Below, one piece after another: positions 142-18,422 of a DNA stretch of 64,000 bases (position 1 is its first letter; the number at the start of each line of letters is the position of its first letter). The position numbers and the translations under genes are program-made. Below the pieces are notes generated by a model, which did not search any database, was not told the DNA's origin, and saw only the letters and a list, made by a program, of their open reading frames with translations. This DNA is from Hymenobacter pini (lineage in GTDB: Bacteria; Bacteroidota; Bacteroidia; Cytophagales; Hymenobacteraceae): the NCBI RefSeq assembly GCF_020421205.1, contig NZ_JAIZZH010000006.1, positions 1-64,000 of the forward strand, given 5' to 3'.

Positions 142-155
142 TTTTCTGGTTTTCA

Positions 156-192
156 TTTCAGGAAAACGTGCCCGTGGCGCGTTTTCCTGAAA
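156..192 (+). terminator. Hairpin between the two precursor genes
   Basis: A 13-bp perfect stem (156-168 with 180-192, arm TTTCAGGAAAACG) with an 11-nt loop sits 14 nt after the stop of precursor 1. There is no U-run after it. It is therefore either a weak terminator or an mRNA 3'-end stabiliser that uncouples precursor 1 from precursor 2, as is common in RiPP operons. Which of these it does is inference. Confidence 0.5.
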
Positions 193-248
193 CCCACCAG
201 CCTATCATTTCCTCCTTTCCAATTTTCAACTTTTAATTTCTTACCACT

Positions 249-416
249 ATGAAAAAGGTACAATTCAACGAGCAGCTGAATCTCGACAAAGAAATCATTG
301 CCAACCTGAGTGACGAGCAGCTGCAGGAAATTGAAGGTGGCGCTGCTGCCGGTGGCATGACCTCGTGCTGGTCGACGACCTGCAATGGTAATGTAGCCAA
401 CGAAATTGACGAATAA
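249..416 (+). CDS. Class I lanthipeptide precursor 2
   Basis: A 55-residue peptide too short for standard ORF calling. It begins MKKVQFNEQLNLDKEIIANL and continues SDEQLQEIEGG. Residues 1-31 form the leader, with an FN..LNLDKE box for LanB binding and an LS-xx-EQL-xx-I-x-GG double-glycine site for the C39 exporter. The core AAAGGMTSCWSTTCNG is followed by VANEIDE. It has two Cys (40, 45) and Thr/Ser at 38, 39, 42, 43 and 44. Compared with precursor 1, the leader and the TSCWST.CNG block are conserved while the extreme C-terminus differs. That suggests a duplicated pair, possibly a two-component product. It precedes lanB1 by 254 bp. Confidence 0.9.
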   Translation: MKKVQFNEQLNLDKEIIANLSDEQLQEIEGGAAAGGMTSCWSTTCNGNVANEIDE

Positions 417-3600: not shown

Positions 3601-3853
3601 CTCAGTAGCTCTCCGCGCCGCTTACGATGAGCTGCAGAGTACCTGGGCTACGCACTACCCCGGCCGCAACGTAGCTGCCAGCATCAGCGAGCTGCTACCC
3701 AGCTACCTGCACATGTTCCTGAACCGCATCTTCATTGCCGATCAGCGCCTGCACGAGCTGGTGGTGTACCACTACCTCACTAAGTATTATGCCTCGGCCC
3801 TGGCCCGCACCAAGCAGCGCCAACCGGTAGCGCAACCCGCCTCAACCCTGTAG
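671..3853 (+). CDS. LanB-type lantibiotic dehydratase 1 (full length)
   Basis: A 1060-residue class I lanthipeptide dehydratase, the full NisB-like length. The N-terminal glutamylation domain (about 1-740) uses Glu-tRNA to glutamylate Ser/Thr of the precursor; its signature RMSSRCTPYGLFAG lies at 92-105. The C-terminal elimination domain (about 755-1050, thiopeptide-type) starts near RTFALGSEW. It keeps the E-x-E-R-Y-G block at 857-862 and the HMFLNR histidine at 1014, so both half-reactions look intact. It is cytoplasmic. The gene heads a run of closely spaced + strand genes (7 nt to the next) and follows two precursor genes, its likely substrates. The start at 671 keeps the usual short N-terminus (FDFYLLRLP). 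Sure of family; substrate pairing is inferred from position. Confidence 0.93.
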   Translation: MHSATTPFDFYLLRLPLLPISELLRLHASWQQSEDIAGAMHALYQAPDLQEAIYLVSPELYQEMRKWLARPADSQQPDDKRLLLTLYKYLLRMSSRCTPYGLFAGFSTGRVASQPTHLQLAPPASRHYKHARLDMNYITELSKQVVADAELRTRLSFFVNTSLYKTRDAYRYYEYRIRNKQRYYYLVAVKASRYLELILAAAATGATYAHLLQVLTQAGAAPDSAQRYLNQLIDGQILLSELEPTVTGPEFFNVLVEKVQAIGPQHPSLQQLQQIQALLQGPTIGTGTYQAVEQIIRQAFPSATSKDLIQTDLRLNMSANTLNKEAVTELSQNLNALTHLFKAALPPDLQTFIKNFYERYEEQEIPLLEALDSEAGLGYGKATGARVNHTPLVDDVRTPGKPGIRKINWSEYRQLIVGKFLESQARQLTTITLTDDDLAPLAADNPVQLPSTLFAIGSLVAASAEALDAGEFKFNLMSYSGPGAMSLLARFAHAEPALAEKLAACAEHEQATYGEALLAEIVHLPNAHTGNVIQRSKLREYEIPFLGNASVPLDKQLPASDLLVSVRNGKVVLRSKRLNKQVLPRLTTAHNYNHGLSIYKFLCDLQAQQNPFTVVWDWDFLRQQAYLPRVEYKHVILSRARWHLPATAHPVVAAVRTPEQLRAFREQYHLPEQVVLADFDNELLLDFACPLAIEILAQQLKKGPVILLEFVHRPDTTLVGGEGLASYVNEVIVPFAHTAPAPAPKRLPTRPATTVQRTFALGSEWTYLKVYCGAKWADRILTEHLLPCIQELEAQHGLRRWFFIRYNDPKPHLRLRLQHDAEPGQLAAIIARLHQALAPLQQERVVQSIQYDTYHRELERYGTATIGFSETFFHYDSKAVAGFLNLIEGDEGEHFRWLFAVRGVDQLLSDFNLSLPDKLALTEHIYQAFFQEFNGNAQLKHQLNDKYREVSRTLTSFLDPANDTPYIQEAVDLFNNRSVALRAAYDELQSTWATHYPGRNVAASISELLPSYLHMFLNRIFIADQRLHELVVYHYLTKYYASALARTKQRQPVAQPASTL

Positions 3854-3860
3854 CTCAGCC

Positions 3861-4538
3861 ATGGAAAACCGCCCTTTGTACTCTGCTGAAATCACCGAAA
3901 TAATTGGTACGCCGCCCAGTTGGAACATTCGGGTGGGAGGTGGCGTGCTGCTGCTGGTGCTGGCCCTGCTGCTGACTGGGGCCAGTGTGATAGGCGTGCC
4001 GCAGCACAACAGTACGCCGGTTTCTATCCGGAGCACTGCCCAGCCGCACTACCTGGTACAGCCCGCCGGTACCCTGCAGCTGCTGGTAGAAGCCGGGCAG
4101 GCAATACAGCCCGGCCAAGCCCTGGCCCGCGTGGCTACCGATACGGTACGCGCCCCCTTCGCCGGCACGCTGCAACTACTGCACTTGGCGGGTACTCCGG
4201 TTAGCCCCGGCGATACGCTAGGCATGCTGGTCCCGCTGCACAACGCCTATCAGTTTAGCGGCCGCCTGGATATTGGTCAGGTAGCCGAGCTCCGCCGCAA
4301 CAATGCTTTCCCGATTCAGGTGCTGCTGGACAGCCGTACCGAAACCAGCCTGCACTTGCAGGGCCGTCTGGGCTACGTGAACCCCGTGGTGCGTAACGGC
4401 CAGGTTTCCTACACCGGCCAGCTCGACAGCGCCTCCAATACGGCCTTGGCCCAGCACGTGGCTACCATTAACAACCTTACGGGCACCCTGCACCTGAGCA
4501 GCCGCCGCACCCCCATCCTAACCCGACTTTTCAACTAA
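3861..4538 (+). CDS. Short HlyD/biotinyl-lipoyl-like secretion adaptor
   Basis: A 225-residue inner-membrane protein with one N-terminal transmembrane segment (about 25-45, GGGVLLLVLALLLTGAS) and a periplasmic part. The latter carries a lipoyl/HlyD-like beta barrel repeat (VRAPFAGTLQLL at about 95-106, VSPGDTLGML just after). Membrane-fusion proteins normally run 350-480 residues because of a long coiled-coil hairpin, which is missing here. The protein probably pairs with the C39-peptidase ABC exporter encoded three genes downstream rather than reaching a TolC channel. It lies 7 nt after lanB1 in the same operon. Family assignment is by motif pattern only. Confidence 0.7.
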   Translation: MENRPLYSAEITEIIGTPPSWNIRVGGGVLLLVLALLLTGASVIGVPQHNSTPVSIRSTAQPHYLVQPAGTLQLLVEAGQAIQPGQALARVATDTVRAPFAGTLQLLHLAGTPVSPGDTLGMLVPLHNAYQFSGRLDIGQVAELRRNNAFPIQVLLDSRTETSLHLQGRLGYVNPVVRNGQVSYTGQLDSASNTALAQHVATINNLTGTLHLSSRRTPILTRLFN

Positions 4539-4613
4539 CTGCTCCTCTTCCCATGCCCTGCCGCAACCATCTCCAGCAAACTCCAAACCTCCAGTTCTAC
4601 TATCCCAGCTGCC

Positions 4614-7046
4614 ATGAAACACTCTTCCTCCTCTAATCTTCGGCTCGTTGTAGCCATCCTGGGCCTGCTCCTGGCCTGGCACTCCCCGGCCCTGGCCCAG
4701 ACGACCGTAACCGGTCGTGCCCTCGACCAGGATAAAAAAGAAGCCCTGAGCTTTGCTACCGTGGTGCTGAAAGCACCCGGCGCAGAAGGCAAAGTAGTGC
4801 AGTCGACGCTGGCGGATGATGCGGGCGCGTTTTCGATGAAAGCCCCCGCCGGCAGCTACCAGTTGAACGTGCTGATGGTGGGCTACACGACCCTAGTGAA
4901 GGAAGTACAGGTGGCACCCGGTACGCCCACCCTGGACCTGGGTACCCTGGGACTGAGCACGGCCGCTCATAACCTGGGTGAAGTTGTAGTAACGGCCCGC
5001 CGCCCGGTAATTGAGCAGAAGCTGGACCGGGTGACGATGAACGTAGGCGAGAGTGTGCTGGCTGCCGGCAATGATGGCTACAGCCTGCTGGCCATGGCCC
5101 CCTCAGTACAGCTTATTGATGGTCGCCTCTCCTTTCGGGGCAAAAGCAACGTGCTGATTTTGCTGAACGGCAAGCGCCTGCCCGGCGCTAACCTGGAGAG
5201 CGTGCTGGCTAGCATCCCCGGCGACCAGATTGAGCGGATTGAGCTCATCAGCAACCCCTCCGCCAAGTACGATGCTGATGCCTCGGGCGGAGTAATTGAA
5301 ATCTACACCAAGCGCAGCAAAGAACTGGGCTGGACGGCCAACGTGGGCACCAACGTAAGCCAGGGCTACCGCACTGCCGGCGGCCTCAACGGTGGGCTGC
5401 GCGTGAGCACTGCCAAAATTGACTTTACGGCTACGCTGGGCTATACCCGCCGCGGCAATCTGGAGCGGGGCTACCAAAACCGCACATTGTACCAGGGCCT
5501 GACGCCCGTGGGCCGCTTTGCCCAGGATGTAAACCTGGACGACGAAACCATTCAGAACCGCAACGTGAGCGGTAGCCTCAACTACCACTTCAACAAGCGC
5601 AACACGGTGGGCGTGGATGTCAGCCAGGTGCTGTCCCGCCTCGATGGCTCGGGCCGCGTGAAGGCCGTCATCGACCAGCCCCAGGGCACCACCTTCTCCA
5701 ACAGTTTCAACAACATGCGGCTACGGGTTGATTTTGCCAACTACAACCTGTTCTACCGCCGCGTACTGGACAGCCTAGGCTCCAGTGTGCTGGTATCGGG
5801 CAACTACGCCAACTACATCAGCAGCCAGCAGCAGACCTTCGACCAAGAGTTGCTGACGCCCCAGGCCACGGAGCCGACCAAAGCGTACTTCCGCAACTCG
5901 GCCCCGGCCAACTACGACATCTACACCGCCGCCGCCGACTATACCAAGGTGTTCTCGCCGACGCTGCGCCTGGAAGCCGGCGCCAAGCTGACCCGCACCG
6001 GCAACAGCAGCCGCCAAGTAGTGGAAACCATGAACGACGGAACCTGGTACGAGCAGCCCGCCGGCCCCCTCTCCCGCCTGGGCTACCAGGAGCGCATTGC
6101 GGCCGGCTACGTGAGCGTGAACCGGACCAGCGGTAAGCTCGGCCTGCAAATGGGCCTGCGCGCCGAGCAGACGCACTACCGGGTAATCGGGGGTATCGAC
6201 TCCAGCTACTTCAGCCTGTTCCCGAACCTGCGCGCCGACTATAAGGTGTCGGATCAGTACTCTACGGCCCTGGCCTACGCCAAGAATATCAACCGGCCCT
6301 CCTACGCCAGCCTGATTCCGTACGAGCTGTTCTTGGACAACTACACCTCCCAGAAGGGCAATGCCTACCTGCGGCCGGAGTATGTGCACACCTTCTCCTG
6401 GAATCACCTCTACAAAGGTTTCGGCCTGCAGCTGGCCTACACCCAAACGACTAATGCCATGTCGACGGTGTACCTCTATGACCCGGCTACGCTGCGCCTG
6501 ATCATGACCCAGCGCAACTTCCGCCAGCGTCACCAGAGCAGCGCCACCTTCACGGCCCCCCTCACGCCGGCCAAGTGGTGGACGATGAACAACAACGTGA
6601 GCCTGCTGTACCAGGAGCTGACCTACCCAACGCTGCTCAACGAAACCAGCCGCTTCGACACCAAGAGCAAGTTTTACTACACGGCTTCCTCGGACAACAC
6701 CTTCACGCTGGGCAAGGGCTGGACGGCCCAGCTCTACGCGGCCTACAACTCGCCCTCCTTCACCGGTCTGCTCGATTACAGCGCCTACTCTTACGTATCG
6801 ACGGGGATAAAAAAGACCTTCTGGGATAAGAAAGCCTTCCTGAAGCTGGACGTAGCCGACTTGTTCTACCAAGCCAACATCCGGGTATCCTCCAACGTGG
6901 CCCCGGCCGTGACGGATGGCATCCTGCGCAACGACACCCGCCGCGTCCGCCTGGCCTTCAGCTACAAGCTGGGCAAAACGGACCTGAAGAGCAAGCGGGT
7001 TCAATCCAACGGCAACGCAGCCGAGCTGAACCGCCTGGGCATGTAA
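4614..7046 (+). CDS. Outer-membrane beta-barrel / TonB-receptor-like protein of the lanthipeptide operon
   Basis: An 810-residue outer-membrane protein. Signal peptide 1-29 (ending SPALAQ), a carboxypeptidase-regulatory-like beta-sandwich at about 30-115, a TonB plug-like domain at about 125-235 (RRPVIEQKLDRVTMNV, LNGKRLPG, RIELISNPSAKYDADASGG), then a large barrel of the OMP_b-brl_3 type ending in a tail after FSYKLGK. It sits between the HlyD-like gene and LanC1 (14 nt to the latter). In Gram-negative Bacteroidota the peptide must cross a second membrane, so this barrel may be the outer-membrane exit or a self-uptake/immunity receptor. Neither role is shown by sequence. No TonB box was confidently identified. 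Confidence 0.85.
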   Translation: MKHSSSSNLRLVVAILGLLLAWHSPALAQTTVTGRALDQDKKEALSFATVVLKAPGAEGKVVQSTLADDAGAFSMKAPAGSYQLNVLMVGYTTLVKEVQVAPGTPTLDLGTLGLSTAAHNLGEVVVTARRPVIEQKLDRVTMNVGESVLAAGNDGYSLLAMAPSVQLIDGRLSFRGKSNVLILLNGKRLPGANLESVLASIPGDQIERIELISNPSAKYDADASGGVIEIYTKRSKELGWTANVGTNVSQGYRTAGGLNGGLRVSTAKIDFTATLGYTRRGNLERGYQNRTLYQGLTPVGRFAQDVNLDDETIQNRNVSGSLNYHFNKRNTVGVDVSQVLSRLDGSGRVKAVIDQPQGTTFSNSFNNMRLRVDFANYNLFYRRVLDSLGSSVLVSGNYANYISSQQQTFDQELLTPQATEPTKAYFRNSAPANYDIYTAAADYTKVFSPTLRLEAGAKLTRTGNSSRQVVETMNDGTWYEQPAGPLSRLGYQERIAAGYVSVNRTSGKLGLQMGLRAEQTHYRVIGGIDSSYFSLFPNLRADYKVSDQYSTALAYAKNINRPSYASLIPYELFLDNYTSQKGNAYLRPEYVHTFSWNHLYKGFGLQLAYTQTTNAMSTVYLYDPATLRLIMTQRNFRQRHQSSATFTAPLTPAKWWTMNNNVSLLYQELTYPTLLNETSRFDTKSKFYYTASSDNTFTLGKGWTAQLYAAYNSPSFTGLLDYSAYSYVSTGIKKTFWDKKAFLKLDVADLFYQANIRVSSNVAPAVTDGILRNDTRRVRLAFSYKLGKTDLKSKRVQSNGNAAELNRLGM

Positions 7047-7060
7047 GGCCCGCACCCGCT

Positions 7061-8269
7061 ATGCAAACCCAGACACTCACTGCAACTACCGTGGAGCTGG
7101 ACGTGCTACTGCACGCCATAGCCGCCCAGCTCCACGGGCCCCAGGCCGGGCAGCTCACTACCTTGGGCGTAGGCCTGGGGCTGGGAGGCTCCATCCTCTT
7201 CAACTGCCACTACGCCGCCTACACTGGCCAAACTGAGTACTACACCCTAGCCCAGGAGCAGCTGGAGCAGGTACTCGGGCAGCTTAACCCCGGCAGCTAC
7301 AAATCGGATTTTGGCACCAATTACTACCAGGAGCTGGCCGAGCTGGGCAACCTGATTTGCCACCTCATCCGCAACGGCCACCTGGAATGGGATGCTGAGC
7401 GCCTGCTCGGGCAGTTTGATACCATTCTGGACCAACGCCTGCGCTACCTGCTGGAGCAGAAAAACCTGGAGCGCATCAATGGTGCGGTGGGTATCGGTAC
7501 CTACTTCCTGCGGCGGGTGCAGCACTCCGAAAAGGCCCGGCAGACAATGGATATGATGCTGGAAGCCCTGCAGGACCAGCGCGAAGGCAACGAGGAAACG
7601 GGCTACTACTGGGTGTGCCGGCAAATTGTGGAGCCCCGCGTGTACACCGGCCTGGCCCACGGCAGCGCCCTGGTTATCAACTTTCTGACCTCACTTTATG
7701 AGGTTGGGTTTCGGCAGGCTGAGTGCGCCGTGCTGATGCATTACGCCATCAAGTTCCTGCTCAACACCCGCCTCGACCCGCAGCAGTACCTCTCGTCGTT
7801 TCCGCTGTGGCGGGGCAAGCAGGACCGCACCAACAACCTCTCCCTGCCCTACGGCGACCTGGGCACGGCCTACGCCATTCTGCGGGCCGCCGACGCGCTG
7901 GGCAACCTGGAGTACTGGGCCGAAGCCGCGGCCATTGCCCTGCGCACCACCCACCGCACCTCCCTCCCCGACACGTACCTGCACGACGCGTCCATCTTTT
8001 ACGGAGTATCGGGGGCGCACCTGGTGTACGCGGCTTTTTACCAGCGCACGGGCCTGGCCGAGTTCAACGCTGCCGCCCGCTACTGGCTGGAGCAGATTCC
8101 CGCCCGGGCCAACCAGCCCAACGAGTATCTGAATTTCAGCTCCTTCTTCTTCCAGCACCCTACGGCCCAGGTAGGGTTCAATTTGGGCCTCACGGGCATC
8201 GGCCTCACCTTGCTGCAGGCCCTGTCCGGGGGTACGTACGCCCTGGATGAGTTCATCTGGCTGGCATAA
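7061..8269 (+). CDS. LanC-like protein 1, zinc ligands missing
   Basis: A 402-residue LanC-family alpha/alpha-toroid protein. Seven-repeat signatures are visible: GVGLGLGGSI (36-45), GAVGIG (141-146), LAHGSAL (198-204), LPYGDLGTA (262-270), IFYGVSGAH (312-320) and GFNLGLTGIGL (372-382). True LanC cyclases need Cys of W-C-Y-G and Cys-His of C-H-G to bind zinc and activate the precursor thiol. Here these positions are Pro263 (LPYG) and Phe313-Tyr314 (FYG); only the general acid/base His200 of AHG remains. The fold is likely kept while zinc-dependent thioether synthesis is likely lost. It may act as a chaperone or scaffold for LanB. It is in the middle of the lanthipeptide operon, 26 nt before the exporter gene. 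Confidence 0.8.
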   Translation: MQTQTLTATTVELDVLLHAIAAQLHGPQAGQLTTLGVGLGLGGSILFNCHYAAYTGQTEYYTLAQEQLEQVLGQLNPGSYKSDFGTNYYQELAELGNLICHLIRNGHLEWDAERLLGQFDTILDQRLRYLLEQKNLERINGAVGIGTYFLRRVQHSEKARQTMDMMLEALQDQREGNEETGYYWVCRQIVEPRVYTGLAHGSALVINFLTSLYEVGFRQAECAVLMHYAIKFLLNTRLDPQQYLSSFPLWRGKQDRTNNLSLPYGDLGTAYAILRAADALGNLEYWAEAAAIALRTTHRTSLPDTYLHDASIFYGVSGAHLVYAAFYQRTGLAEFNAAARYWLEQIPARANQPNEYLNFSSFFFQHPTAQVGFNLGLTGIGLTLLQALSGGTYALDEFIWLA

Positions 8270-8295
8270 TCACCCTAGTAAATCCGGTATCGGCC

Positions 8296-10494
8296 ATGGC
8301 TACCCTCAGCTTCCCCCACTATCAGCAGCACGATGTAATGGACTGCGGGCCTACCTGCCTGCAGATTATAAGCAAGTTCTATGGCAAAATCTTCAACATT
8401 GAGAAAATCCGCTCCTTTAGCCAGATAGGCAAAACCGGCGTTTCATTGCTGGGCATCAGCAAGGCCGCTGAAACCCTGGGCATTCAGGCCGTGGGTGGCA
8501 ACATGACCTTTGAGAAGCTGGAGCAGCAGGCGCTGCTGCCCTGCATCATTCACTGGCGCCGCAACCACTTTGTGGTGCTCTACAAAATCAAGCGCAACAA
8601 AGTATATATCTCCGACCCCGCCAGTGGTCTGCATACTTACACCCGCGAGGAGTTTCTGGCCAACTGGGCCTATACCAACATCCACAACAAGGCCGCCGGC
8701 ATTGTGATGCTGCTCACGCCCACGCCCTCCTTCTATAAGGCTGAGGACGATGAAGCCACCCGCCACATTGGCGTAACGCAGCTGCTGGACCACATTCTGC
8801 ACTACAAAGCTCTCCTGAAGCAGCTTATGGCCGGGCTGGTGGTGGGAGCCGCCATTCAGCTGCTGCTGCCGTTCCTCACCAAAGGCCTGGTAGATATCGG
8901 CATCAAGGGGCACGACCTGAACTTCGTGTACATCATTCTGCTGGGGCAGCTGCTGTTTACGCTGGGCCAGACCTCGGTGGAGCTGATTCGGGGGTGGATT
9001 CTGCTGCACATTACGGCCCGCGTAAACGTGGCGGTGCTGTCGGAGTTCCTGCACAAGCTGCTGCGCCTGCCCCTGTCGTTCTTTGATACCAAGCTCACCA
9101 GCGACATTCTGCAGCGCATTGAGGACCACAAGCGCATTGAAGCCCTGCTGACCAGCAGCTCGCTGAACACGCTGTTCTCCATGATAACCTTCAGCGTGTT
9201 CGGGGCCATCCTGTACGCTTACAATCCGCTTATCTGCGGCGTATTCCTAGGGGGCAGCGCCCTGTACTGCGGCTGGATTTACCTGTTTCTGGAGCGCCGC
9301 AAAAAGCTGGATTTCAACCGCTTTGAAATAGCCGCCCAGAACCGCGCCAAAACCCTGCAGCTCATCAACGGCATCTACGAAATCAAGATTAATGACTGCG
9401 GCACCCAGAAAATCTGGGAGTGGGAGGGTATTCAGGCCAAGCTATTCCGGTTCAACGTCCGCTCCCTGGCCCTGAGTCAGTACCAGCAGGTAGGCTCCAC
9501 TTTCCTTAACCAAGCCAAAAATATCTTCATCCTGTTTCTGGCAACCCGCCAAGTAATGGCCGGCCAGATGACCCTGGGCGACATGATGGCCATCCAGTTC
9601 ATTGTGGGTCAGATGAACGGCCCAATTGCCCAACTGGCCCTGTTTCTGCAGACCTATCAGGATGCCCGCATCAGCATGGAGCGCCTGGGCCAGGTACAGG
9701 TGCTGGAAGAAGAAGAGGCCCCCAGCAAAGATTACGTGCACGACTTGCCCACGGGCCGTAGTATTACACTCCAAAACGTATCGTTCGTGTACCCAGGGGC
9801 CGGCAACAAGCCTACGCTGAAGAACATCAGCTTCCGAGTACCCGAAGGCCAGACTACCGCCATTGTGGGCTCCAGCGGCAGCGGCAAAACTACCTTGCTC
9901 AAGCTCCTGCTCCGCATCTGCACCCCCACCGACGGCCAACTGCTGGTAGAAGACATGCCGCTGGAGCGCATCAGCCCTCAGCACTGGCGCCAGCACTGCG
10001 GCATTGTGATGCAGGACGGGTTTATCTTCTCCGATACCATTGGCAACAACATTGCCATCAACGCCGAGCACCGCAGCCAGCCGGCCATCGAAAAAGCCCT
10101 GCATATTGCCAACCTGGAGCAGTACATCCGCAGTCTGCCGTTGGGGTTGCACACCAAAATTGGGGAAGATGGCAAAGGCTTGAGCGGGGGGCAGCGCCAG
10201 CGGGTGCTCATCTCGCGCATGGTGTACAAAAACCCCGATTACATCTTCCTGGACGAGGCCACCAGCGCCCTGGACGCCCACAATGAGAAGGTGATTATGG
10301 AGCGCCTCAACGAGTTTTTCCAAGGCAAAACCGTGGTAATTGTGGCCCACCGCCTCAGCACCGTTAAAAACGCCGACAACATTATCGTGCTCAACAACGG
10401 CGAAGTAACAGAGCAGGGCAGCCACGAAGAGCTGGTGCGCAAGCGGGGCTACTACTACGAGCTGATTAAAAACCAGCTGGAACTCGGTAACTGA
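8296..10494 (+). CDS. Peptidase-containing ABC exporter (C39 peptidase-TMD-NBD)
   Basis: A 732-residue LanT/PCAT-type exporter. The N-terminal C39 cysteine peptidase (about 1-135) has the HDVMDCGPTC motif with catalytic Cys17, His91 (RRNHFVVL) and Asp107 (ISDPASG). A six-helix membrane domain follows at about 165-450. The nucleotide-binding domain has Walker A GSSGSGKTT (525-533), ABC signature LSGGQRQR (629-636), Walker B YIFLDEATS and the H-loop AHR. It should cut the leader after the EGG of precursors 1 and 2 and move the core peptide to the periplasm, with the HlyD-like protein as partner. All catalytic residues are present. Confidence 0.93.
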   Translation: MATLSFPHYQQHDVMDCGPTCLQIISKFYGKIFNIEKIRSFSQIGKTGVSLLGISKAAETLGIQAVGGNMTFEKLEQQALLPCIIHWRRNHFVVLYKIKRNKVYISDPASGLHTYTREEFLANWAYTNIHNKAAGIVMLLTPTPSFYKAEDDEATRHIGVTQLLDHILHYKALLKQLMAGLVVGAAIQLLLPFLTKGLVDIGIKGHDLNFVYIILLGQLLFTLGQTSVELIRGWILLHITARVNVAVLSEFLHKLLRLPLSFFDTKLTSDILQRIEDHKRIEALLTSSSLNTLFSMITFSVFGAILYAYNPLICGVFLGGSALYCGWIYLFLERRKKLDFNRFEIAAQNRAKTLQLINGIYEIKINDCGTQKIWEWEGIQAKLFRFNVRSLALSQYQQVGSTFLNQAKNIFILFLATRQVMAGQMTLGDMMAIQFIVGQMNGPIAQLALFLQTYQDARISMERLGQVQVLEEEEAPSKDYVHDLPTGRSITLQNVSFVYPGAGNKPTLKNISFRVPEGQTTAIVGSSGSGKTTLLKLLLRICTPTDGQLLVEDMPLERISPQHWRQHCGIVMQDGFIFSDTIGNNIAINAEHRSQPAIEKALHIANLEQYIRSLPLGLHTKIGEDGKGLSGGQRQRVLISRMVYKNPDYIFLDEATSALDAHNEKVIMERLNEFFQGKTVVIVAHRLSTVKNADNIIVLNNGEVTEQGSHEELVRKRGYYYELIKNQLELGN

Positions 10495-10530
10495 TTTATT
10501 CTCACTCTCCCTTCTTTATTCCCTACCGCT

Positions 10531-11544
10531 ATGAGCAGCTTTATTCCCGCCTTTGTTGAGCAACTCACCGCCCTGCGCTACTCGCGCACCACTCCTGAGC
10601 AGTTGCGCACCCCCGATACACAGGCTTTGTTCACGGCCCTGTTCAACAACCAGCTCAAAGCGCAGGTAGGGCCCGAGGTGGCCGAACAGGCCAGCCAGTT
10701 GGTAGCGCATTACTACAAAGCCGTGCAGCTGTGCCGCAAAAACGAGCTAACGGCGGCCCTGGCCCAGCTGCATCTCACGGATGCGCGCCAGGCTGGCCTG
10801 CCCGCCCCGGCCGTTGAGTTTGTGACGCTGTTCCAGCTCTCGGCCTGGGGTAATTACTACTACAAAAACGGGGAAGGCACGCGGGGCATTGATACGCTGC
10901 TACATGGGCTGAGCATCAGCGCCCGGCTGGAGCAGGAGGGCTACGAGGTGTTTATCCACCGGCGCATTGAGCAGCTGCACAATATTGCGACCATCTACCT
11001 CAAGCAGCAGCAGTATGAGCAGGCCCACGCCCTGATAAAAAACACGCTCACCTTCGTGCACTCAGGCCAGGCCAGCGGGCTGTTTATTGCGGATTGGGAT
11101 GGAGCCCTGCTCGGGCGGGTGAAGCTGTTTCAGGAAGCTACTCTGGAAGACAGCCTGGGCCGCATGGCCGGCCACAACACCCAGCTCATGGACCACCCCA
11201 CCTACGGCAACGAGTTCTACTACCAGCACTATCTGCGCGACTTGCTCCGCGACCTGGCCACCACTACCTACAACCGCCTGGTGCTGCACAACTGGCTGTA
11301 CGCCAAAGCATCTTACTTTGAGCAAGGGCCCGAGGCATTCTTCCGGAACGTGCTGGAGTTCCTCTCCGACCCCGACATTACGCCTAACTACGACGTATTC
11401 CGGGCTAACCTGCTGGCGCAGGCTATTTGGGCTATTCGCCAGCAGCCGGTGCCGCAGCAAGCTGAGCTCATTGCCACCATCCAGCAGTTTTCTGATGCCC
11501 ACCTGCTCGACCGCATGGGCAAGGTGATAAAGCTGGCCGCCTGA
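10531..11544 (+). CDS. Unknown TPR-like helical protein at the end of the lanthipeptide operon
   Basis: A 337-residue protein with no signal peptide or membrane segment; not recognised as any named family. The middle (about 100-180) has the spacing of tetratricopeptide repeats (SAWGNYYYKNGEGTRGIDTL, then HNIATIYLKQQQYEQAHAL), and the C-terminal half is Tyr/Leu-rich and predicted helical. It starts 36 nt after the exporter and ends before a terminator, so it is the last gene of the operon. By position it could be a cytoplasmic adaptor, an immunity factor or a precursor-binding scaffold; the sequence does not choose between them. Confidence 0.7.
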   Translation: MSSFIPAFVEQLTALRYSRTTPEQLRTPDTQALFTALFNNQLKAQVGPEVAEQASQLVAHYYKAVQLCRKNELTAALAQLHLTDARQAGLPAPAVEFVTLFQLSAWGNYYYKNGEGTRGIDTLLHGLSISARLEQEGYEVFIHRRIEQLHNIATIYLKQQQYEQAHALIKNTLTFVHSGQASGLFIADWDGALLGRVKLFQEATLEDSLGRMAGHNTQLMDHPTYGNEFYYQHYLRDLLRDLATTTYNRLVLHNWLYAKASYFEQGPEAFFRNVLEFLSDPDITPNYDVFRANLLAQAIWAIRQQPVPQQAELIATIQQFSDAHLLDRMGKVIKLAA

Positions 11545-11811: not shown

Positions 11812-14800
11812 ATGGCCCACGCCTACCAGTTTCATCCGCATGTAGTATTACGCACGCCGGCCGCTCCTTTTACCTTAGCTGTTGATGCTGCCACCATCCA
11901 AGCCGCCCTGCACGACGAGCAGTTTCGGGAGGCCATCTACCTGGCCTCACCTTCCTTGCTGGAGGAGTGCGAGAAATGGCGCTTGGGCGAGCTGACGGAA
12001 CCGCGCAAGTTGGAACGCTTGCAGAGCACGCTAACCCGCTACTTCATGCGGCGCAGCAGCCGCTGTACGCCGTTCGGGCTGTTTGCGAGCTGTACGTTGG
12101 TGAAATGGGGCGCCCACAGCCACATTCAGTTGAACACGGCCCGTAACGGCCGCCACACGCGCCTGGATATGCATTACCTCTGCGCCCTAGCTCAGCATCT
12201 GGCGGCGCATCCGACCGTTCGGCCTCACCTGCGCTATTGGCCCTCTACCAGCCTTTATCAGGCCGGGCAGGAGATTCGCTACGTTGAGTACATACACACC
12301 CCCACCACGCGCGTGCACCAAATCAGCGCGGTAGGGGCCTCCGAAGCGTTGGCACAAGTGCTGAGCGCCGCCCGCGAGGGGGCCACCATTCTACAGTTGG
12401 CCGCCACTCTGGTGGAGGATGAAGCCGACCAACCCGAAGCGGCTGCCTTTGTGGAGGCGCTAGTGGAGGCTCAGCTGCTAGTGAGTGAGCTGGAGCCTAC
12501 CGTTACTGGCGACGAGTATTTTCAGCATATCCGGCAGGTACTGCAACAGCTCGCTACCCAGCATCCGGAGCCGGCCCTGCAAGCGGTAGCACAAACTCTG
12601 GCACACGTGCACCAGCAGCTTGTGGCGCTGGATGCGGCTCCCATGAATTCGGCCAGCGCCTACCAGCGCATTGCCGACAGCCTGCAGCCGTTGGGCGTAC
12701 CCGTGGAAGCAGGCAAGCTATTCCAAACGGACGCTGTGTGTGGGCTGGCCGAGGCAACCACGCCTACGCTGGATGTTGCCCACCAGGCCCACTTGCTGGA
12801 GGCCCTGGAGGTGCTGACTTACCTGACGCCCAGCGCCGAAAACCCGCGCCTCGCCGACTTTATGCGCCGGTTTCAGGACCGCTACGAGGAGCAGGAAGTA
12901 CCGCTGCTGGAGGCCCTCGATAACGAAAGTGGCCTGTCGTATTCCAGCTACGGCAAGAGCCGTTTCTCGGAGTTGGTGCACGACTTGGTGCTAGAAGAAC
13001 CCGGACACCACCGGACGCCCGCGCACAACCGTACCCAGCACTATATGCGGCAGCGCCTGCAGGCCGCGGAGCGCCACCGCCAGTATACCGTGGAGATTAG
13101 CCTGGCTGAGCTGCGCAGTCAGGGCTTCGAACCCGAAACCCGCTCCCTGCCGCCTTCCGTGCCACTGCTGTTCCGGCCAACCGGTGCCAGCCAGCTACTT
13201 CTGGAAAGCGTGGGTGGCTCCAGCGCCGTCAACCTGCTGGGGCGCTTTGCCCACGCGCAGCCGGCCGTGCAAAGCCTTATCCAGGATATAACCCGCCAGG
13301 AGCAGGCACATAACCCCGACGTGGCATTTGCCGAAATATGCCATCTTCCGGCCAGCCGCACCGGCAACCTGCTGCAAAGACCCCACTTCCGGGCGCTGGA
13401 AATTCCCTACCTGGCCCAATCAACCTTGCCGCCCGATGCGCAGGTGCGGGTGCAAGACCTAACCTTATCGGTGCGGGCGGGCCAACTGGTGCTGCGCTGC
13501 CGACGCCGCAACCAGGTAATTGTGCCGCGCCTGAGCACGGCGCACAATTTTGCCGGCGACATGCTACCCGTGTACCAGTTTCTGTGCGACCTGCAAACGC
13601 AGGGCGTACAGCCCAGTCTGGGGTTCAGCTGGCAGGCAGTGGCCGGCTCCGCTACCTTTCTGCCACGCCTGAGCTGCGGCGCGGTGGTGCTGGCTCCGGC
13701 CACCTGGCAATTCACCCAAGCCGATTTGCACGACCTGCTGGCAGCCAGCCCGGCTGAGTTACCGCACCAACTGGCGGCTTTCCGGCATCAGTGGCAGCTC
13801 CCGCGCTTCTTCACCCTGGCCGATGGCGACAACGAGTTACTCATTGACCTCGAAAATCAGCTACTGGTGAGCGTTTGGTTATCGGCCGTGCGTGGCCGCG
13901 CATCCAGTAAGCTCAAGGAATTTCTGTTTGACCCCGCCGCCAGCCCGGTTCGGGACATAGCCGGCCAGCCGTTTGTACCGCAGTGCATTGCCCTGCTTGT
14001 GCGCCAGACGCCCTGCTATTTTGCGGCCGGCGCCCCGCTGACAGCCGAAGCGCCGATTGCCGTCATCCGGAGCTTTTCGCTGGGCTCTGAGTGGCTGTAT
14101 TACAAGCTATACTGCGGTCAGCTGGTAGCCGACCGGGTATTGCTGGAGGCCCTTGCCCCACTAACTGCGGAGCTCCGCGAGCAGGGGCTGATTGACAACT
14201 GGTTTTTTGTGCGGTATTCTGACCCCGATATGCACCTGCGGGTGCGCTGGCACCTGCCTGAGCCGGGCCGCATTGGAGAGGTGGTGCGCTTGGTGAGCGA
14301 GTATCTGGCTCCTTTTATAGCCACCCAATCCGTCTGGAAGCTCCAGACGGACACGTACCGCCGGGAGCTGGAGCGGTACGGCTCTCGCAGCATCGAAGCC
14401 ACCGAGCAGCTGTTCTGCTACCAGACCGACGCTCTATTGGCCCGCATGGCACAAGCCGCCGAGGAAGAAGCCCCTGGAGAGCTGTGGCCGTGGGGGCTCA
14501 GTGCCATCGAGGAGCTGCTCACCGCCTTCAACTATTCGCTGCCGCGCAAACTTATCCTGACGAAACGCCTCAAGGAATCATTTGCGCGGGAGTTCGGCAA
14601 CACCAAGGCGCTGAAGCTGCAGCTCGATGATAAATACCGCAGTGCCCGGCCGCTGGTACAGCAAGCCATCAGTTCCGTAACCAACTCCGCCCTGCCACTG
14701 CCAGCCGAATTGTTGGCTATTGCGGCCCGCATTACGGAACTGGAGCAGCAGGGCGGCCTGGAAATAGCCAAAGACCAGCTGCTGGCCAGCTACCTGCATA

Positions 14801-14925
14801 TGCTCCTGAACCGGCTGCTACCCGCCGAAGCCCGCCTGCACGAGCTCGTGCTGTACGACTTCCTGTTCCGGCACTATCAATCGTGCCTGGCCCGGCAGCA
14901 GAAACAGGAGCAGGTACCACTGTAA
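11812..14925 (+). CDS. LanB-type lantibiotic dehydratase 2 (full length)
   Basis: A 1037-residue second class I dehydratase, clearly paralogous to the first but divergent. The glutamylation domain has RRSSRCTPFGLF at 80-91. The elimination domain starts near RSFSLGSEW (753) and keeps the E-L-E-R-Y-G block (852-857) and HMLLNR His996. Both catalytic halves are therefore plausible. It is flanked by terminators on both sides and appears monocistronic. No double-glycine precursor lies next to it; the nearest peptide is the Cys-free one at 16933. It may serve that peptide, or share precursors 1 and 2 with LanB1. The substrate assignment is inference. Confidence 0.92.
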   Translation: MAHAYQFHPHVVLRTPAAPFTLAVDAATIQAALHDEQFREAIYLASPSLLEECEKWRLGELTEPRKLERLQSTLTRYFMRRSSRCTPFGLFASCTLVKWGAHSHIQLNTARNGRHTRLDMHYLCALAQHLAAHPTVRPHLRYWPSTSLYQAGQEIRYVEYIHTPTTRVHQISAVGASEALAQVLSAAREGATILQLAATLVEDEADQPEAAAFVEALVEAQLLVSELEPTVTGDEYFQHIRQVLQQLATQHPEPALQAVAQTLAHVHQQLVALDAAPMNSASAYQRIADSLQPLGVPVEAGKLFQTDAVCGLAEATTPTLDVAHQAHLLEALEVLTYLTPSAENPRLADFMRRFQDRYEEQEVPLLEALDNESGLSYSSYGKSRFSELVHDLVLEEPGHHRTPAHNRTQHYMRQRLQAAERHRQYTVEISLAELRSQGFEPETRSLPPSVPLLFRPTGASQLLLESVGGSSAVNLLGRFAHAQPAVQSLIQDITRQEQAHNPDVAFAEICHLPASRTGNLLQRPHFRALEIPYLAQSTLPPDAQVRVQDLTLSVRAGQLVLRCRRRNQVIVPRLSTAHNFAGDMLPVYQFLCDLQTQGVQPSLGFSWQAVAGSATFLPRLSCGAVVLAPATWQFTQADLHDLLAASPAELPHQLAAFRHQWQLPRFFTLADGDNELLIDLENQLLVSVWLSAVRGRASSKLKEFLFDPAASPVRDIAGQPFVPQCIALLVRQTPCYFAAGAPLTAEAPIAVIRSFSLGSEWLYYKLYCGQLVADRVLLEALAPLTAELREQGLIDNWFFVRYSDPDMHLRVRWHLPEPGRIGEVVRLVSEYLAPFIATQSVWKLQTDTYRRELERYGSRSIEATEQLFCYQTDALLARMAQAAEEEAPGELWPWGLSAIEELLTAFNYSLPRKLILTKRLKESFAREFGNTKALKLQLDDKYRSARPLVQQAISSVTNSALPLPAELLAIAARITELEQQGGLEIAKDQLLASYLHMLLNRLLPAEARLHELVLYDFLFRHYQSCLARQQKQEQVPL

Positions 14926-14985
14926 CACTCCAGGAAAAAGTAATGGGCGGCTATTTTTTGCCGCCCATTACTTTTTCCTGGAGTG
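14926..14985. terminator. 25-bp perfect bidirectional terminator
   Basis: A perfect inverted repeat (14926-14950 with 14961-14985, loop CTATTTTTTG) directly follows the stop of lanB2. It also contains the last codons and stop of the convergent response-regulator gene (GGKK-stop is encoded within the right arm). One hairpin thus serves both convergent genes, and the regulator's C-terminus is fixed by the hairpin sequence. Confidence 0.75.
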
Positions 14986-15682
14986 CCTCAAAAAACGCGT
15001 TCCGGTAAGTGTCGCCCAGCGGCACGTAGGCTTTCATATCCTTGAACATGATCTGGTTACCATCCAGCGCTTTAATTTTATCCATGGATACGACGTAGCT
15101 TTTGTGCACCCGCATGAAGTTTTTGGGTGGCAGCCGGTCTTCCAGATCTTTGATATTGAGCAGCGTGACGATGCGCTCCTCCGCCGTGTGGATGGCCAGG
15201 TAATTCTTCATCCCTTCCACGTATACAATCTCATCGAAGTTCACCTTCGTCATCTTGCCTTTGCTTTCCGTCTTCACAAAAATGTAGTCGTCGGGCTTTT
15301 CGGCGGGTTGCCAGCGGGCAGAGGGCTCAATAGATGTGTTCAGGGCTTTCTGCGCGGCTTTCAGAAACCGCTCGAAGGCAATGGGTTTCAGCAGGTAATC
15401 CAGGGCCTCCAGCTCGAAGCCTTCCACGGCAAACTCGCTGTAGGCTGTGGTCAGAATAACCTTGGTTTTGCCCTGAATAAGGCGCATGAAATCCAGCCCC
15501 GACAGCTGCGGCATATGAATATCCAGAAACAGCAGGTCCACGGGCTGCCGTTGCAGTAGGCTCAGCGCCTCTACGGGGTTGGTGCTGCTGCCCACCAGCG
15601 TGAGAAAGGGCGTTTTCTCAATAAAGGTGCGCAAAATGTCAATGGCACCTTGTTCATCATCCACTATCAGGCAGGAAATCAT
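14951..15682 (-). CDS. LytTR-family response regulator
   Basis: A 243-residue response regulator. The receiver domain (about 1-120) has VDDE (Asp8, Asp9), phospho-acceptor Asp54 in LLFLDIHMP, the T..S region (ILTTAYSE) and Lys in YLLKPI. The C-terminal LytTR DNA-binding domain (about 135-240) carries IVYVEGMKNYLAIHT and RVHKSYVV. It is transcribed with the adjacent LytS-type kinase (3-nt gap) and points away from the Cys-free peptide gene. By context it is likely to control the lanthipeptide modules. Its 3' end lies in the bidirectional terminator shared with lanB2. Confidence 0.9.
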   Translation of the reverse strand: MISCLIVDDEQGAIDILRTFIEKTPFLTLVGSSTNPVEALSLLQRQPVDLLFLDIHMPQLSGLDFMRLIQGKTKVILTTAYSEFAVEGFELEALDYLLKPIAFERFLKAAQKALNTSIEPSARWQPAEKPDDYIFVKTESKGKMTKVNFDEIVYVEGMKNYLAIHTAEERIVTLLNIKDLEDRLPPKNFMRVHKSYVVSMDKIKALDGNQIMFKDMKAYVPLGDTYRNAFFEALQEKVMGGKK

Positions 15683-15685
15683 GGA

Positions 15686-16723
15686 TTATAGCTCGATGTT
15701 CAGGGTACAAGTATAGTAATCTGGCTCATCATTTATCAGCAGCGTATACCGGTCTTTGTAGAGCATTTCCAGGCGTTGCCGGGTGTTTACTAAACCGATT
15801 CCCGTGCTCCGCTCTTTGGGGCCCAGCCGCTTCTTGTTGCGCGTCTGAAAGGTAAGCTGGTTCTGTACCGTGGTCAGGCGAATAACCAGCGGATTTTGTG
15901 CGTCGGCCAGCTCGCCGTGCTTAAAGCAGTTTTCCACAAAGGTGATGAGCACCAGGGGCAAAATCATCAGAAACTGCACGTTTCCGCTTATGACAAAGTC
16001 AATCTGGAGCTGGTTGTTGTAGCGCAGCTGGTTGATGGCAATATAATTCTGCAGGTGCTTGACTTCCTGGCTCAGCATCACCTTGCCGTTGTTGTCTTCG
16101 TGCAGGGCGTAGCGCATGGTTTCCGAAAGCAGCAGAATGGCTTTGGCCGCATTTTCGGAGTGTGGGTACACCTGGGCGTACAGAAAATTGAGTGAATTGA
16201 ACAGGAAATGCGGGTTAATCTGGCTTTTGAGGAAGGCAATATTGGCCTCCAGCAGGCTTTTCTCGGTAGCCCGCAGCTGCTCCTCCTGCTGGCGGCGCTG
16301 CTTTTCCAGGCGCACCGCATTCAGGGCAAACCAATACCCGGTACTCACCAGCTGAAAAAACATGCCCCGGTACACCGCCAGCACCCAAAAGCGCCCATAG
16401 GAATACGCCGGACCCGTAACCGGGTATCCCACAGCTGGTAGCCAGGTGGTATACAGCTCGGCGCGCAGCAACCCGTAAAGCGCCAGCAGCAACACGGCCG
16501 CGGCGGCATACCCGGTGTACTGCCGCCGGCCGTACAGCTTGGGCAGCAGCACGTTGCTGTTGGTGTAGAACAAGGCTATGTTCAACCCATAGTTTAGAAT
16601 CAGCGGCAGTATGGTAATCTGGGAAGCATCGGTAAAGAAGAACACCGACTGCTCGTACAGGGCAAAGCCCAGCCAAACCAGCACATGCGGCAAATAGGAG
16701 GAGCGCTTGAAGCGGAATTGCAT
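15686..16723 (-). CDS. LytS/YehU-type sensor histidine kinase
   Basis: A 345-residue membrane histidine kinase, with start chosen at MQFRFKRSSYLP; an upstream in-frame Met at 16777 adds 18 poorly plausible residues. About four transmembrane helices lie in residues 8-150. A short coiled coil (QRRQQEEQLRATEKSL) follows, then the His_kinase H-box SQINPHFLFNSLNFLYAQ and an HATPase domain (N-box TFVENCFKHG, G-box STGIGLVNTRQRL). It partners the LytTR regulator encoded just downstream. The sensor part has no large periplasmic domain, so the ligand is probably membrane-associated or hydrophobic, for example a modified peptide. That is inference. Confidence 0.9.
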   Translation of the reverse strand: MQFRFKRSSYLPHVLVWLGFALYEQSVFFFTDASQITILPLILNYGLNIALFYTNSNVLLPKLYGRRQYTGYAAAAVLLLALYGLLRAELYTTWLPAVGYPVTGPAYSYGRFWVLAVYRGMFFQLVSTGYWFALNAVRLEKQRRQQEEQLRATEKSLLEANIAFLKSQINPHFLFNSLNFLYAQVYPHSENAAKAILLLSETMRYALHEDNNGKVMLSQEVKHLQNYIAINQLRYNNQLQIDFVISGNVQFLMILPLVLITFVENCFKHGELADAQNPLVIRLTTVQNQLTFQTRNKKRLGPKERSTGIGLVNTRQRLEMLYKDRYTLLINDEPDYYTCTLNIEL

Positions 16724-16837
16724 GCAACGAATGTAGAAGAGTTGCCGGCAGCAAGCCAGCATACTCCGCCCAGGCACCCAAGTTTAGTGCAGAAAGCCCC
16801 GTTTGGTACCGGGCAACAGGGCGTTGGTGTAATAGTT

Positions 16838-16868
16838 TTTGGTTGAGGCTGGGCGTGGGTTACGTTTG
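16838..16868 (+). promoter_or_regulatory. Bacteroidota-type promoter for the Cys-free peptide gene
   Basis: TTTG (16838-16841), a 19-nt spacer and TACGTTTG (16861-16868) match the Bacteroidota sigma-70 pattern TTTG-N19-TAnnTTTG. The predicted start is about 16875, giving a leader of roughly 60 nt to the ATG at 16933. GGGCGT occurs at 16819-16824 and 16851-16856, 32 bp apart, bracketing the -33 element; this may be an operator. Confidence 0.55.
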
Positions 16869-16932: not shown

Positions 16933-17082
16933 ATGAAAAACCTCAACACGTCCGCCAAATTCAAGCTCAACAAAACCATCGTGGTGCGCTTCACCAAGCC
17001 CGGCTCCGCCGACAGCTTCGGCAGCACGTCCGTTATTCAAACGACGGTTTCCAGCATCATCGGGCCCGACTTTAGCTTCTAG
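16933..17082 (+). CDS. Cysteine-free Ser/Thr-rich RiPP precursor-like peptide
   Basis: A 49-residue peptide, absent from ordinary gene calls. It starts MKNLNTSAKFKLNKTIVVRF and continues TKPGSADSFGSTSVIQTTVS, ending SIIGPDFSF. The FKLNKTIVVRF stretch resembles the LxLNKxTI box of class I lanthipeptide leaders. The C-terminal half contains nine Ser/Thr but no Cys, and there is no double-glycine site. It has its own good promoter upstream and a hairpin downstream, and lies between the kinase gene (divergent) and a LanC-like gene. It may be a substrate for LanB2 giving a dehydro-amino-acid peptide without thioether rings, or a non-modified signal peptide for the two-component system. Confidence 0.65.
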   Translation: MKNLNTSAKFKLNKTIVVRFTKPGSADSFGSTSVIQTTVSSIIGPDFSF

Positions 17083-17132
17083 CAGCGCCCGCCCGCTCCG
17101 GCCGCGGCGCAGTATGTACAAGCTACTAGTTG

Positions 17133-17162
17133 AATACCCGGTGGCACTTGCCGCCGGGTATT
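17133..17162 (+). terminator. Hairpin after the Cys-free peptide gene
   Basis: A 9-bp stem AATACCCGG (17133-17141) pairs with CCGGGTATT (17154-17162), starting 50 nt after the stop codon, with partial read-through into the LanC-like gene possible. High peptide and low LanC expression from one promoter is the usual RiPP logic. Confidence 0.5.
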
Positions 17163-17222
17163 TGCTTATCTGAGCGTACCGTGTTTTGAGCATTCACAGA
17201 GGTATCCTTATTCACCACGAGA

Positions 17223-18422
17223 ATGACCGGGCTCCATCACTTCCACACCGCATCATCGGGCGAGCATCGGCCCGATTTCACACCTGCACCGCCTGCTACA
17301 TATGCACCTGCTGAAACCTGGCAACACGTTCATTATACCATTGCTACTACCCTCGATGCTTTATTAACAACGGAGGAGCTGACGGGGGCCGCCATATACT
17401 ATTTCTGCACCTACCAGGTTTTTGGGCAACCCGCCGATGCAGCCTTAGCGCAGCACCTTTTTAGTCAAGCACTTGCGCAGATTATTAAACCCTGCACGCC
17501 TGGCCATTTGGCACACGTATGCCAAGTGGCGTGGCTGCATGCGCAGCTTATAGCCACCAACCTGGCACTACCCGAGGCAGAAGTGGTACTGGAGCAACTG
17601 GACAGGCAGATATTTGCCGCCGCCGATCAACTGCTGACTCAGCCATCAGACGCGCATACCGGCTCTATCGTGCACGTTCTTCGTTATTTTTATCTGCGGC
17701 TGCCGGCACCGGCTGCCACCGCTCACCTTGAGTACCTGTTGGCCAGGCAAACTACGCTTACCCGGCCCTGGCTGTCAGCGGAGCCCCATGCGCCGAGACT
17801 ACCACTGGGCCTGGATGATGGTCTGGCCGCCAAACTATTGGTGCTGCTCCATATTCATAAGGCCGGCGTTACCAGCCAGCCGATTCAGCAGTACGTGCGG
17901 TACGGTATCCGGCTGCTGCTAGGTGTCAAGCGGGAAGTGGATTTTCTGGACCAGCGCTATTCCGTATTCCCCGATTGGCTGGAAGCCGGTAGTGGAAAGG
18001 CCATCTTCAGCGACGAAATAAGCTGGCCCCGAGGCGACATAGGCCAGTCATTGCTGCTGTATGAAGCCCACCAGTTTTTGCAGGACGCGGAACTAGCCAA
18101 CGTGGCCGAGTTAGTAGGTCTCAACACGCTGCTACGTGTCAGCATGCAATCAACTCAGGTTACCACTGCTCAATTTTATCAGGGTGCCGCCGGGGTAGCC
18201 TACCTCTACCTCAAGCTTAGCGCCATCAGTGGCCAGCCGGCGTACCAGAAAGGCTACGCGTTCTGGCTTCATCGGCTGCAACACCACGTCCATCAGGAGC
18301 TTGCAACCGGTTTTTACCAGGGCTGCACAGCACAGATACAGCACGGCCTGACTGGTGTAGGGCTGGTATTACTGTCGGCCGTTACGGCCAAGCCGCTCCA
18401 CTGGGACAAGATGCTGGTGTAG
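17223..18422 (+). CDS. LanC-like protein 2, zinc ligands and catalytic His missing
   Basis: A 399-residue divergent LanC-family protein. Repeat signatures are recognisable but degenerate: LPLGLDDGLAAKLL (193-206) replaces the AHG repeat, so the His becomes Asp; SWPRGDIGQSLL (267-278) replaces WCYGDxG, so Cys becomes Pro269; FYQGAAGVAYLY (318-329) replaces CHGxxG, so Cys-His becomes Tyr319-Gln320; and IQHGLTGVGLVLL (372-384) is the last repeat. None of the three zinc ligands is present, in line with the neighbouring precursor-like peptide having no Cys. A scaffold or leader-binding role is more likely than cyclisation. It follows the peptide gene by 140 nt and precedes a strong terminator. Confidence 0.68.
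   Translation: MTGLHHFHTASSGEHRPDFTPAPPATYAPAETWQHVHYTIATTLDALLTTEELTGAAIYYFCTYQVFGQPADAALAQHLFSQALAQIIKPCTPGHLAHVCQVAWLHAQLIATNLALPEAEVVLEQLDRQIFAAADQLLTQPSDAHTGSIVHVLRYFYLRLPAPAATAHLEYLLARQTTLTRPWLSAEPHAPRLPLGLDDGLAAKLLVLLHIHKAGVTSQPIQQYVRYGIRLLLGVKREVDFLDQRYSVFPDWLEAGSGKAIFSDEISWPRGDIGQSLLLYEAHQFLQDAELANVAELVGLNTLLRVSMQSTQVTTAQFYQGAAGVAYLYLKLSAISGQPAYQKGYAFWLHRLQHHVHQELATGFYQGCTAQIQHGLTGVGLVLLSAVTAKPLHWDKMLV

Follow-up and report, generated by a model that had tools for sequence, protein, structure and literature searches.

What is the function of a 49-residue peptide that is encoded between a sensor kinase and a LanC-like protein? The peptide gene lies at 16933..17082 (+) in a 64,000-nucleotide stretch of the Hymenobacter pini genome, which we call the window, flanked by genes for a kinase (15686-16723, -), transcribed divergently, and for a LanC-like protein (17223-18422, +). 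The original prediction described a peptide with an FKLNKTIVVRF box, without cysteine or a Gly-Gly site, and rich in serine and threonine. The translation agrees: there are 49 residues, no Cys, and no Gly-Gly, the box is present, and nine Ser/Thr lie within the final 23 residues. It went on to propose either a dehydrated peptide without rings or an inducer for the adjacent kinase. From the sequences we favor both proposals, which are mutually compatible, because the dehydratase residues are kept, the zinc ligands of the LanC-like protein are lost, the promoter has a LytTR-type site, and peptide cores covary with the kinase's sensor. We put at roughly one half the probability that the peptide is a LanB-modified, probably thioether-free inducer that is sensed by the adjacent kinase, with chemistry, export, and sensing as we infer them.

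Is the ORF a gene at all? It is short, and no family in NCBIfam or Pfam matches it at E <= 1, as might be expected of a chance ORF or a decayed lanthipeptide gene. A profile of the LanC-like protein (LanC2) matched 30 of 120 genomes of the genus at E <= 1e-20; 26 of these were of the full LanC2 type (E <= 1e-52) and 4 were weaker. Among the weaker ones, we inspected the neighbors in G006, which is of another kind, and left out G074, G093, and G125. A homologous small ORF lies near LanC2 in 25 of the 26 genomes (in G120 it is a weak match, E 0.01). In the 26th, G132, the homologue (L220 238-441) follows a strong copy of the promoter site described below and is some 54 kb away from LanC2, so the module can be split. 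The named hosts include Hymenobacter siberiensis, elongatus, rubripertinctus, nitidus, negativus, metallilatus, metallicola, cavernae, terrestris, crusticola, lucidus, and persicinus.

In most of these peptides the leader reads K-F-x-x-x-K-T-x-[VI]-x-R-F, and the core is variable and Ser/Thr-rich (mean identity 0.52 for the leader and 0.20 for the core). For all 21 pairs of non-identical peptides that are at least 55% identical (pairs that are not mutually independent), dN/dS was 0.04-0.57, saturated ones apart; in three saturated pairs, pN/pS was 0.32-0.36. The third codon position takes 50 of the 77 substitutions in three close pairs, and the core itself is also under coding selection. The ORF is a real gene under purifying selection. 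A lack of conservation or of coding selection had been named in advance as what would count against the prediction; instead, all 26 LanC2 genomes have homologues, under purifying selection and with a conserved promoter. We reject a chance ORF on these grounds, and chance or decay together is hardly credible.

One trait of the window peptide is not general. Of 27 distinct peptides in the family, 18 have no cysteine, and the other nine, among them a Cys-bearing subclade, have one or two, so we have dropped the absence of cysteine as a family-defining trait. The window peptide itself has no core Cys from which the (methyl)lanthionine of a class I lanthipeptide could be made. We note some oddities among the copies. 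The G082 module has three tandem peptide copies (L059 11557-12237), with a site of its own only at the first. Contig C11 of G059 has a second, identical peptide copy behind a strong site (L235 5520-5720, -), followed by what by eye are transposase-like ORFs and then a LanB; LanC2 of G059 is interrupted by an in-frame TAA. A search for plasmid-borne copies gave no match.

What surrounds the peptide is also conserved. The divergent gene (15686..16723, -) encodes a LytS-type sensor histidine kinase (PF06580), and its AlphaFold2 model (pTM 0.45) has four N-terminal helices, more than a simple hydropathy scan picks out. Beyond it are a response regulator with a LytTR domain (14951..15682, -) and a full-length class I dehydratase, LanB2 (11812..14925, +). 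A membrane histidine kinase with a LytTR regulator is what an Agr/ComDE-like system would have. The order, with LanB2 forward, the regulator and kinase reversed, and the peptide and LanC2 forward, is unbroken in 21 of those 25 genomes in which the peptide is near LanC2, and in 24 of the 25 the peptide adjoins the kinase divergently. As for the exceptions, LanB is at the other side in G120, G059 is rearranged, and in G029 and G108 there is a lanthipeptide operon between the parts or the parts run past the fetched stretch. Outside the genus, G145 (from the same family) and G389 have the same order, while in Pedobacter cryoconitis and Pedobacter sp. PAMC26386, the kinase, regulator, and LanB genes form one divergent run that faces the peptide and LanC2. 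The peptides of these four are all Cys-free; the match is strong for G145 (E 4.6e-11) and weak for G389 and the two Pedobacter strains (E 0.05-0.44). Looser versions of the module occur in G310 and G475. In a sample of the phylum, at least 3 of 395 genomes had a LanC2 match at E <= 1e-30 (two Hymenobacter and G803); these searches of the order and the phylum scored at most four candidates per genome and may miss cases. We rejected the LanC of G803 as a LanC2: its zinc site is intact, and it is a different protein. Separately, in two genomes of the order a peptide with one Cys, a leader of this style, and no Gly-Gly (L136 1569-1742; L139 1647-1844) is encoded beside the kinase of larger Gly-Gly lanthipeptide clusters.

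Could LanB2 modify the peptide? Both LanB Pfam domains match it, it aligns with NisB, and by inspection all 24 of the module LanBs have the equivalents of NisB Y80/R83/R87/T89, R784/R786, and H961 (this count is without G132 and G108, whose LanB lies past the fetched stretch). The H961 equivalent is outside the NisB alignment, and we placed it by the motif that we take to mark it. The E823/R826 pattern is found in 23 of the 24 and is missed by both Pedobacter LanBs and the G310 LanB; E823 is counted here among the catalytic residues of NisB. The roles of the other catalytic residues in NisB are those given in passages of PMC4341554 and PMC4979651. So the module has the LanB, with catalytic residues, that a class I lanthipeptide system requires.

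The LanC-like partner is another matter. A profile, a structural model, and inspection of motifs all bear on LanC2 (17223..18422, +), which has the LanC fold (pLDDT 87.8; TM 0.72 to NisC and 0.70 to MadC). It had been noticed that the zinc site was missing from the window's protein, and this is true of all 25 LanC2 proteins: none has the Cys of WCYG and none has the His of CHG, although two have a Cys at the CHG position. The Cys/Cys/His zinc site of a class I LanC is thus absent. LanC2 does have invariant residues of its own, among them D240-F241, F249-P250, and those of an AELVGLNTLLR stretch. Loss of the zinc ligands is not, by itself, proof that LanC2 is inactive, because the cyclase domains of LanKC proteins also lack them and yet are part of working synthetases (from passages of PMC7268733 and PMC4979651). 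Given this precedent, the preserved fold, and the particular invariant residues, one could argue that LanC2 cross-links the peptide without zinc, as in LanKC, through a nucleophile other than Cys, or through Cys in the subclade that has it. But we see no conserved nucleophile among the cores, and 18 of the 27 peptides have no cysteine, so we consider this improbable. An intact dehydratase and a zinc-less LanC suggest a dehydrated peptide, which in most species lacks the Cys for ring closure.

What of the promoter? The prediction of a consensus promoter stood only in part: we found no sigma-70 promoter between 16700 and 17300, but there is a direct repeat, TTGGT-N16-TTGGTGTAA, at 16803..16832 (+), and 28 nt past it a Bacteroidetes-type -7 box (TAnnTTTG), TACGTTTG, at 16861..16868 (+). 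(We take TAnnTTTG to be the Bacteroidetes -7 consensus.) The second half-site is found by pattern at 24 of the 27 Hymenobacter peptide copies. It is missing from G017, whose site is recovered by the profile R1 described below (E 6.7e-7), and from the two internal tandem copies in G082. In these 24 promoters the first half-site, 21 bp before the second (start to start), reads TTGGT in 19 and differs from it at one base in five, and TAnnTTTG lies at exactly N28 in 19. The site is shared by G145, with weaker forms in G389 and Pedobacter. The repeats are separated by 12 bp, which matches the LytTR-bound repeats described in passages of PMC6193735, where the separation is mostly 12 bp. This suggests that the module's regulator would bind the peptide promoter, and a peptide gene whose promoter carries direct repeats of this predicted kind is another feature of Agr/ComDE-like systems. 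We found no Rfam element between 16600 and 17300. The predicted hairpin after the peptide is there, at 17132..17163 (+), between the peptide and LanC2 (folding z -4.3 for 17083-17180), and it may be a transcript end or an attenuator. However, a stem beyond that of shuffled sequences is present in only 10 of 25 modules, so we do not use the hairpin to define the module.

Does the kinase sense the peptide? We compared the variation of the parts across 23 of the 25 genomes with the peptide near LanC2. (We left out G108, whose peptide is identical to that of G029, and G094, whose LanC2 is below our 30% BLAST threshold.) Mean identity is 0.39 in the sensor half of the kinase and 0.73 in the kinase half. 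In Mantel tests, which ignore the tree, the distance between peptide cores correlates with that between sensors (r 0.59), and the partial correlation given the kinase half, regulator, LanB, LanC2, and leader is 0.37 (p 0.001, the lowest value that 1000 permutations allow). The other partial correlations with the core are -0.10 for the kinase half, -0.21 for the regulator, 0.09 for LanC2, 0.12 for LanB, and 0.17 for the leader. Among the 16 Cys-free genomes alone, the core-sensor value is 0.42. When we ranked 92 sixty-residue windows by their correlation with the core, the top five were all in the sensor. The sensor windows range from r 0.48 to 0.56, and the lowest is below the best of LanC2 (0.52) and LanB2 (0.50); 13 fast-evolving windows of LanB and LanC2 reach r 0.52, with a mean of 0.45. 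We consider it suggestive that the cores covary with the sensor above the other proteins of the module, and no stronger than that, because the tests ignore the tree and the two genes are adjacent. Shared recombination of these neighbors could add to the signal.

The main rival to our reading is that the peptide is an effector, such as an antimicrobial or some other dehydrated RiPP, while the kinase senses something else and the two-component system merely regulates production along with other metabolites. Biosynthetic loci often carry regulators of their own, and such a regulator may serve the product instead of sensing it. Also, variable cores would fit peptides in an arms race. On the other hand, the core follows the sensor, and not LanB or LanC2, once the other parts are accounted for. 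Furthermore, in the 25 genomes with the peptide near LanC2, the module has no exporter, protease, or immunity gene of its own. Inside the fetched stretch, a C39 exporter gene occurs in 7 of the 25, and G085 and G108 have one at or past the edge; in the remaining 16, none was seen within the 14-32 kb fetched. (The same lack counts against our own reading too, and that of a dedicated exporter or processing protein sets the module apart from Agr/ComDE-like systems.) We find the effector explanation unlikely on balance, yet it deserves to be taken seriously, and the sites elsewhere in these genomes bear on it too.

A genome scan with the exact pattern, allowing two mismatches, was near background (in the window genome, 56 matches versus 47 for a reversed control), so we relied instead on R1, a profile built from 24 promoters (23 from Hymenobacter and that of G145). 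Its training set left out G017, the two internal G082 copies, the G108 duplicate, G389, and the two Pedobacter sites. We ran R1 on 27 genomes of the genus with the module and 27 without it, scoring 150 first-look candidates per genome. Peptide promoters apart, at E<1e-6 there were 43 sites in 14 of the 27 module genomes, as compared to 4 sites in 4 of the 27 module-less genomes; the promoters set aside include those of the G132 peptide and the second G059 copy. We examined 33 of the 43, and 15 have a clear downstream gene while 18 do not have a clear target ORF. The window genome has extra sites on its contigs C13 (E 5.5e-10) and C11 (E 1.1e-8), and R1 gives a fourth, weaker match there. Downstream of the C11 site is a lipoprotein gene; G103 has a site before a visibly related lipoprotein, and another lipoprotein gene follows sites in G001, G060, and G091. 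TonB receptors follow strong sites in G002, G004, G017, and G120 and weaker sites, just above the cut-off, in G103 and G134. Genes for NusG, a nitroreductase, a hydrolase, and an aminotransferase have sites ahead of them in G001, G060, and G091, as do formyltransferase and AMP-binding/carrier genes in G001 and G091 (gene calls in this metabolite cluster are from Pfam for G091 and from visible similarity for G060 and G001). Next to a hydrolase gene in G084, G082, G069, G068, and G067 (L202, L203, L204, L206, and L207) we also saw conserved tandem sites that no clear ORF follows; the equivalent place in G091, G060, and G001 has a lipoprotein gene.

That some of these targets are other specialized-metabolite genes is in keeping with the effector explanation, as is the presence of sites in genomes without the module. 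Of the sites in module-less genomes, two precede a kinase/regulator pair (regulator 74-75% identical; G007 and G013, L231 and L233) and two precede a TonB receptor, so such a network of sites exists without the peptide. A peptide inducer circuit would show what we see here: a kinase gene next door, a LytTR-type site in the promoter of the peptide gene itself, further sites elsewhere, and a variable core that is matched to a variable sensor.

In the window genome, the circuit might include the neighboring lanthipeptide operon. Near the start of the window is a Gly-Gly lanthipeptide precursor that has two Cys (249..416, +), followed by genes for LanB1, HlyD, a TonB receptor, LanC1, a C39 ABC exporter, and a TPR protein (671..11544, +), which we predict to be a target of the regulator. 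The operon's head is probably on C13, where the site precedes a small acidic GGGG-bearing ORF and then Gly-Gly lanthipeptide precursors. Because the final 77 bases of C13 are the first 77 of the window's contig, this site is very probably at the head of the operon whose remainder lies in the window. A similar operon head, with a related acidic ORF, is found in G071 and G085, and G029 and G108 have a site before the LanB1 cluster; these four sites score weakly (E 6.6e-5 to 0.0035). We also observed that the operon is split at the contig boundary by tandem precursor repeats (window 1-416; L171); that the acidic GGGG ORF heads a lanthipeptide operon in three genomes (L171 ~9818-9985, L229 1159-1320, and L228 8726-8908 (-)); and that LanC1 (7061-8269) is without zinc motifs as well (it has LPYGDLG and FYGVSG), though the operon's precursors carry two Cys.

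The leader of the window peptide is in the style of the precursor at 249-416, and here, as in some relatives, a lanthipeptide cluster lies next to the module. These facts raise another possibility: the peptide might stay inside the cell as a helper for Gly-Gly lanthipeptides, either as a leader in trans or as a regulator of LanB2 or of the kinase. But for 16 of the 25 modules the fetched stretch shows no cluster with a C39 exporter, and the coding selection on the core also speaks against a helper. We think that this is quite improbable.

If the peptide is indeed an inducer, how would the circuit work? The product of the ORF at 16933-17082 would be the precursor of a small peptide signal. LanB2 would bind the conserved leader and dehydrate Ser/Thr of the core, and LanC2, without its zinc ligands, might be a partner, a scaffold, or the maker of a non-standard link. 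The leader would then be removed and the mature peptide exported. Adjacency and covariation suggest that the divergently encoded membrane kinase senses the mature peptide. It would activate the LytTR regulator, which would bind the direct repeat and raise expression of the peptide gene, giving positive feedback. Judging from the sites, the regulator would also activate the Gly-Gly lanthipeptide operon and the lipoprotein gene in the window genome.

More broadly, these modules may represent a family of LanB-dehydrated, thioether-free pheromones, each with its own kinase and regulator, that form a quorum-type circuit over lanthipeptide, TonB-receptor, and metabolite genes, with LanC2 re-used. 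We offer this tentatively, as something that we would not quite wager on. If it is true, then Bacteroidota have a gene-encoded peptide signal whose chemistry, with dehydroamino acids but no rings, is new, there is a role for zinc-less LanC proteins, and silent lanthipeptide clusters could be switched on by adding or expressing the peptide. A self-inducing signal that also switches on other clusters would be unusual for Bacteroidota.

How does the module compare with known systems? We found no description of a module of this peptide, LanB2, LytTR regulator, kinase, and LanC2 in the open-licence PMC literature, which was the scope of our search and does not take in subscription papers. The individual parts are of known kinds, and within that literature it is their combination that is new. 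Peptides of this kind may have been passed over: as described in part of PMC7268733, a large genome-mining study set aside LanM-associated precursors without Cys as not being lanthipeptides. The module resembles the class I lanthipeptides of Bacteroidetes, which have an LxLxKx5L leader and include the pinensin family (PMC7268733, in part), in having LanB- and LanC-type enzymes and a Lys-containing LxLxK-type leader. It differs from them in that the peptide is often Cys-free and has no Gly-Gly at the end of its leader, there is no exporter, the LanC lacks zinc ligands, and a kinase/LytTR pair is attached.

The resemblance to Agr and ComDE lies in the small peptide gene beside a membrane kinase, the LytTR regulator with direct repeats 12 bp apart, the predicted positive feedback, and the variability of both the peptide and the sensor. 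However, our module is in Bacteroidota, its kinase is of the PF06580 type, and it has no export gene. Where Agr and ComDE use AgrB or Gly-Gly processing, the module has a LanB dehydratase. As in nisin autoinduction by NisK/NisR, a peptide that is modified by LanB (here, by prediction) is encoded beside its two-component system. But NisR is of the OmpR type (according to part of PMC8895600) while our regulator is a LytTR protein, and our peptide, which usually lacks Cys, is distinct from the Gly-Gly lanthipeptide. Finally, goadsporin and the dehydrazoles share with our peptide's predicted product the dehydrated residues without thioether rings; they have azole-forming enzymes, whereas the module has a link to a kinase instead.
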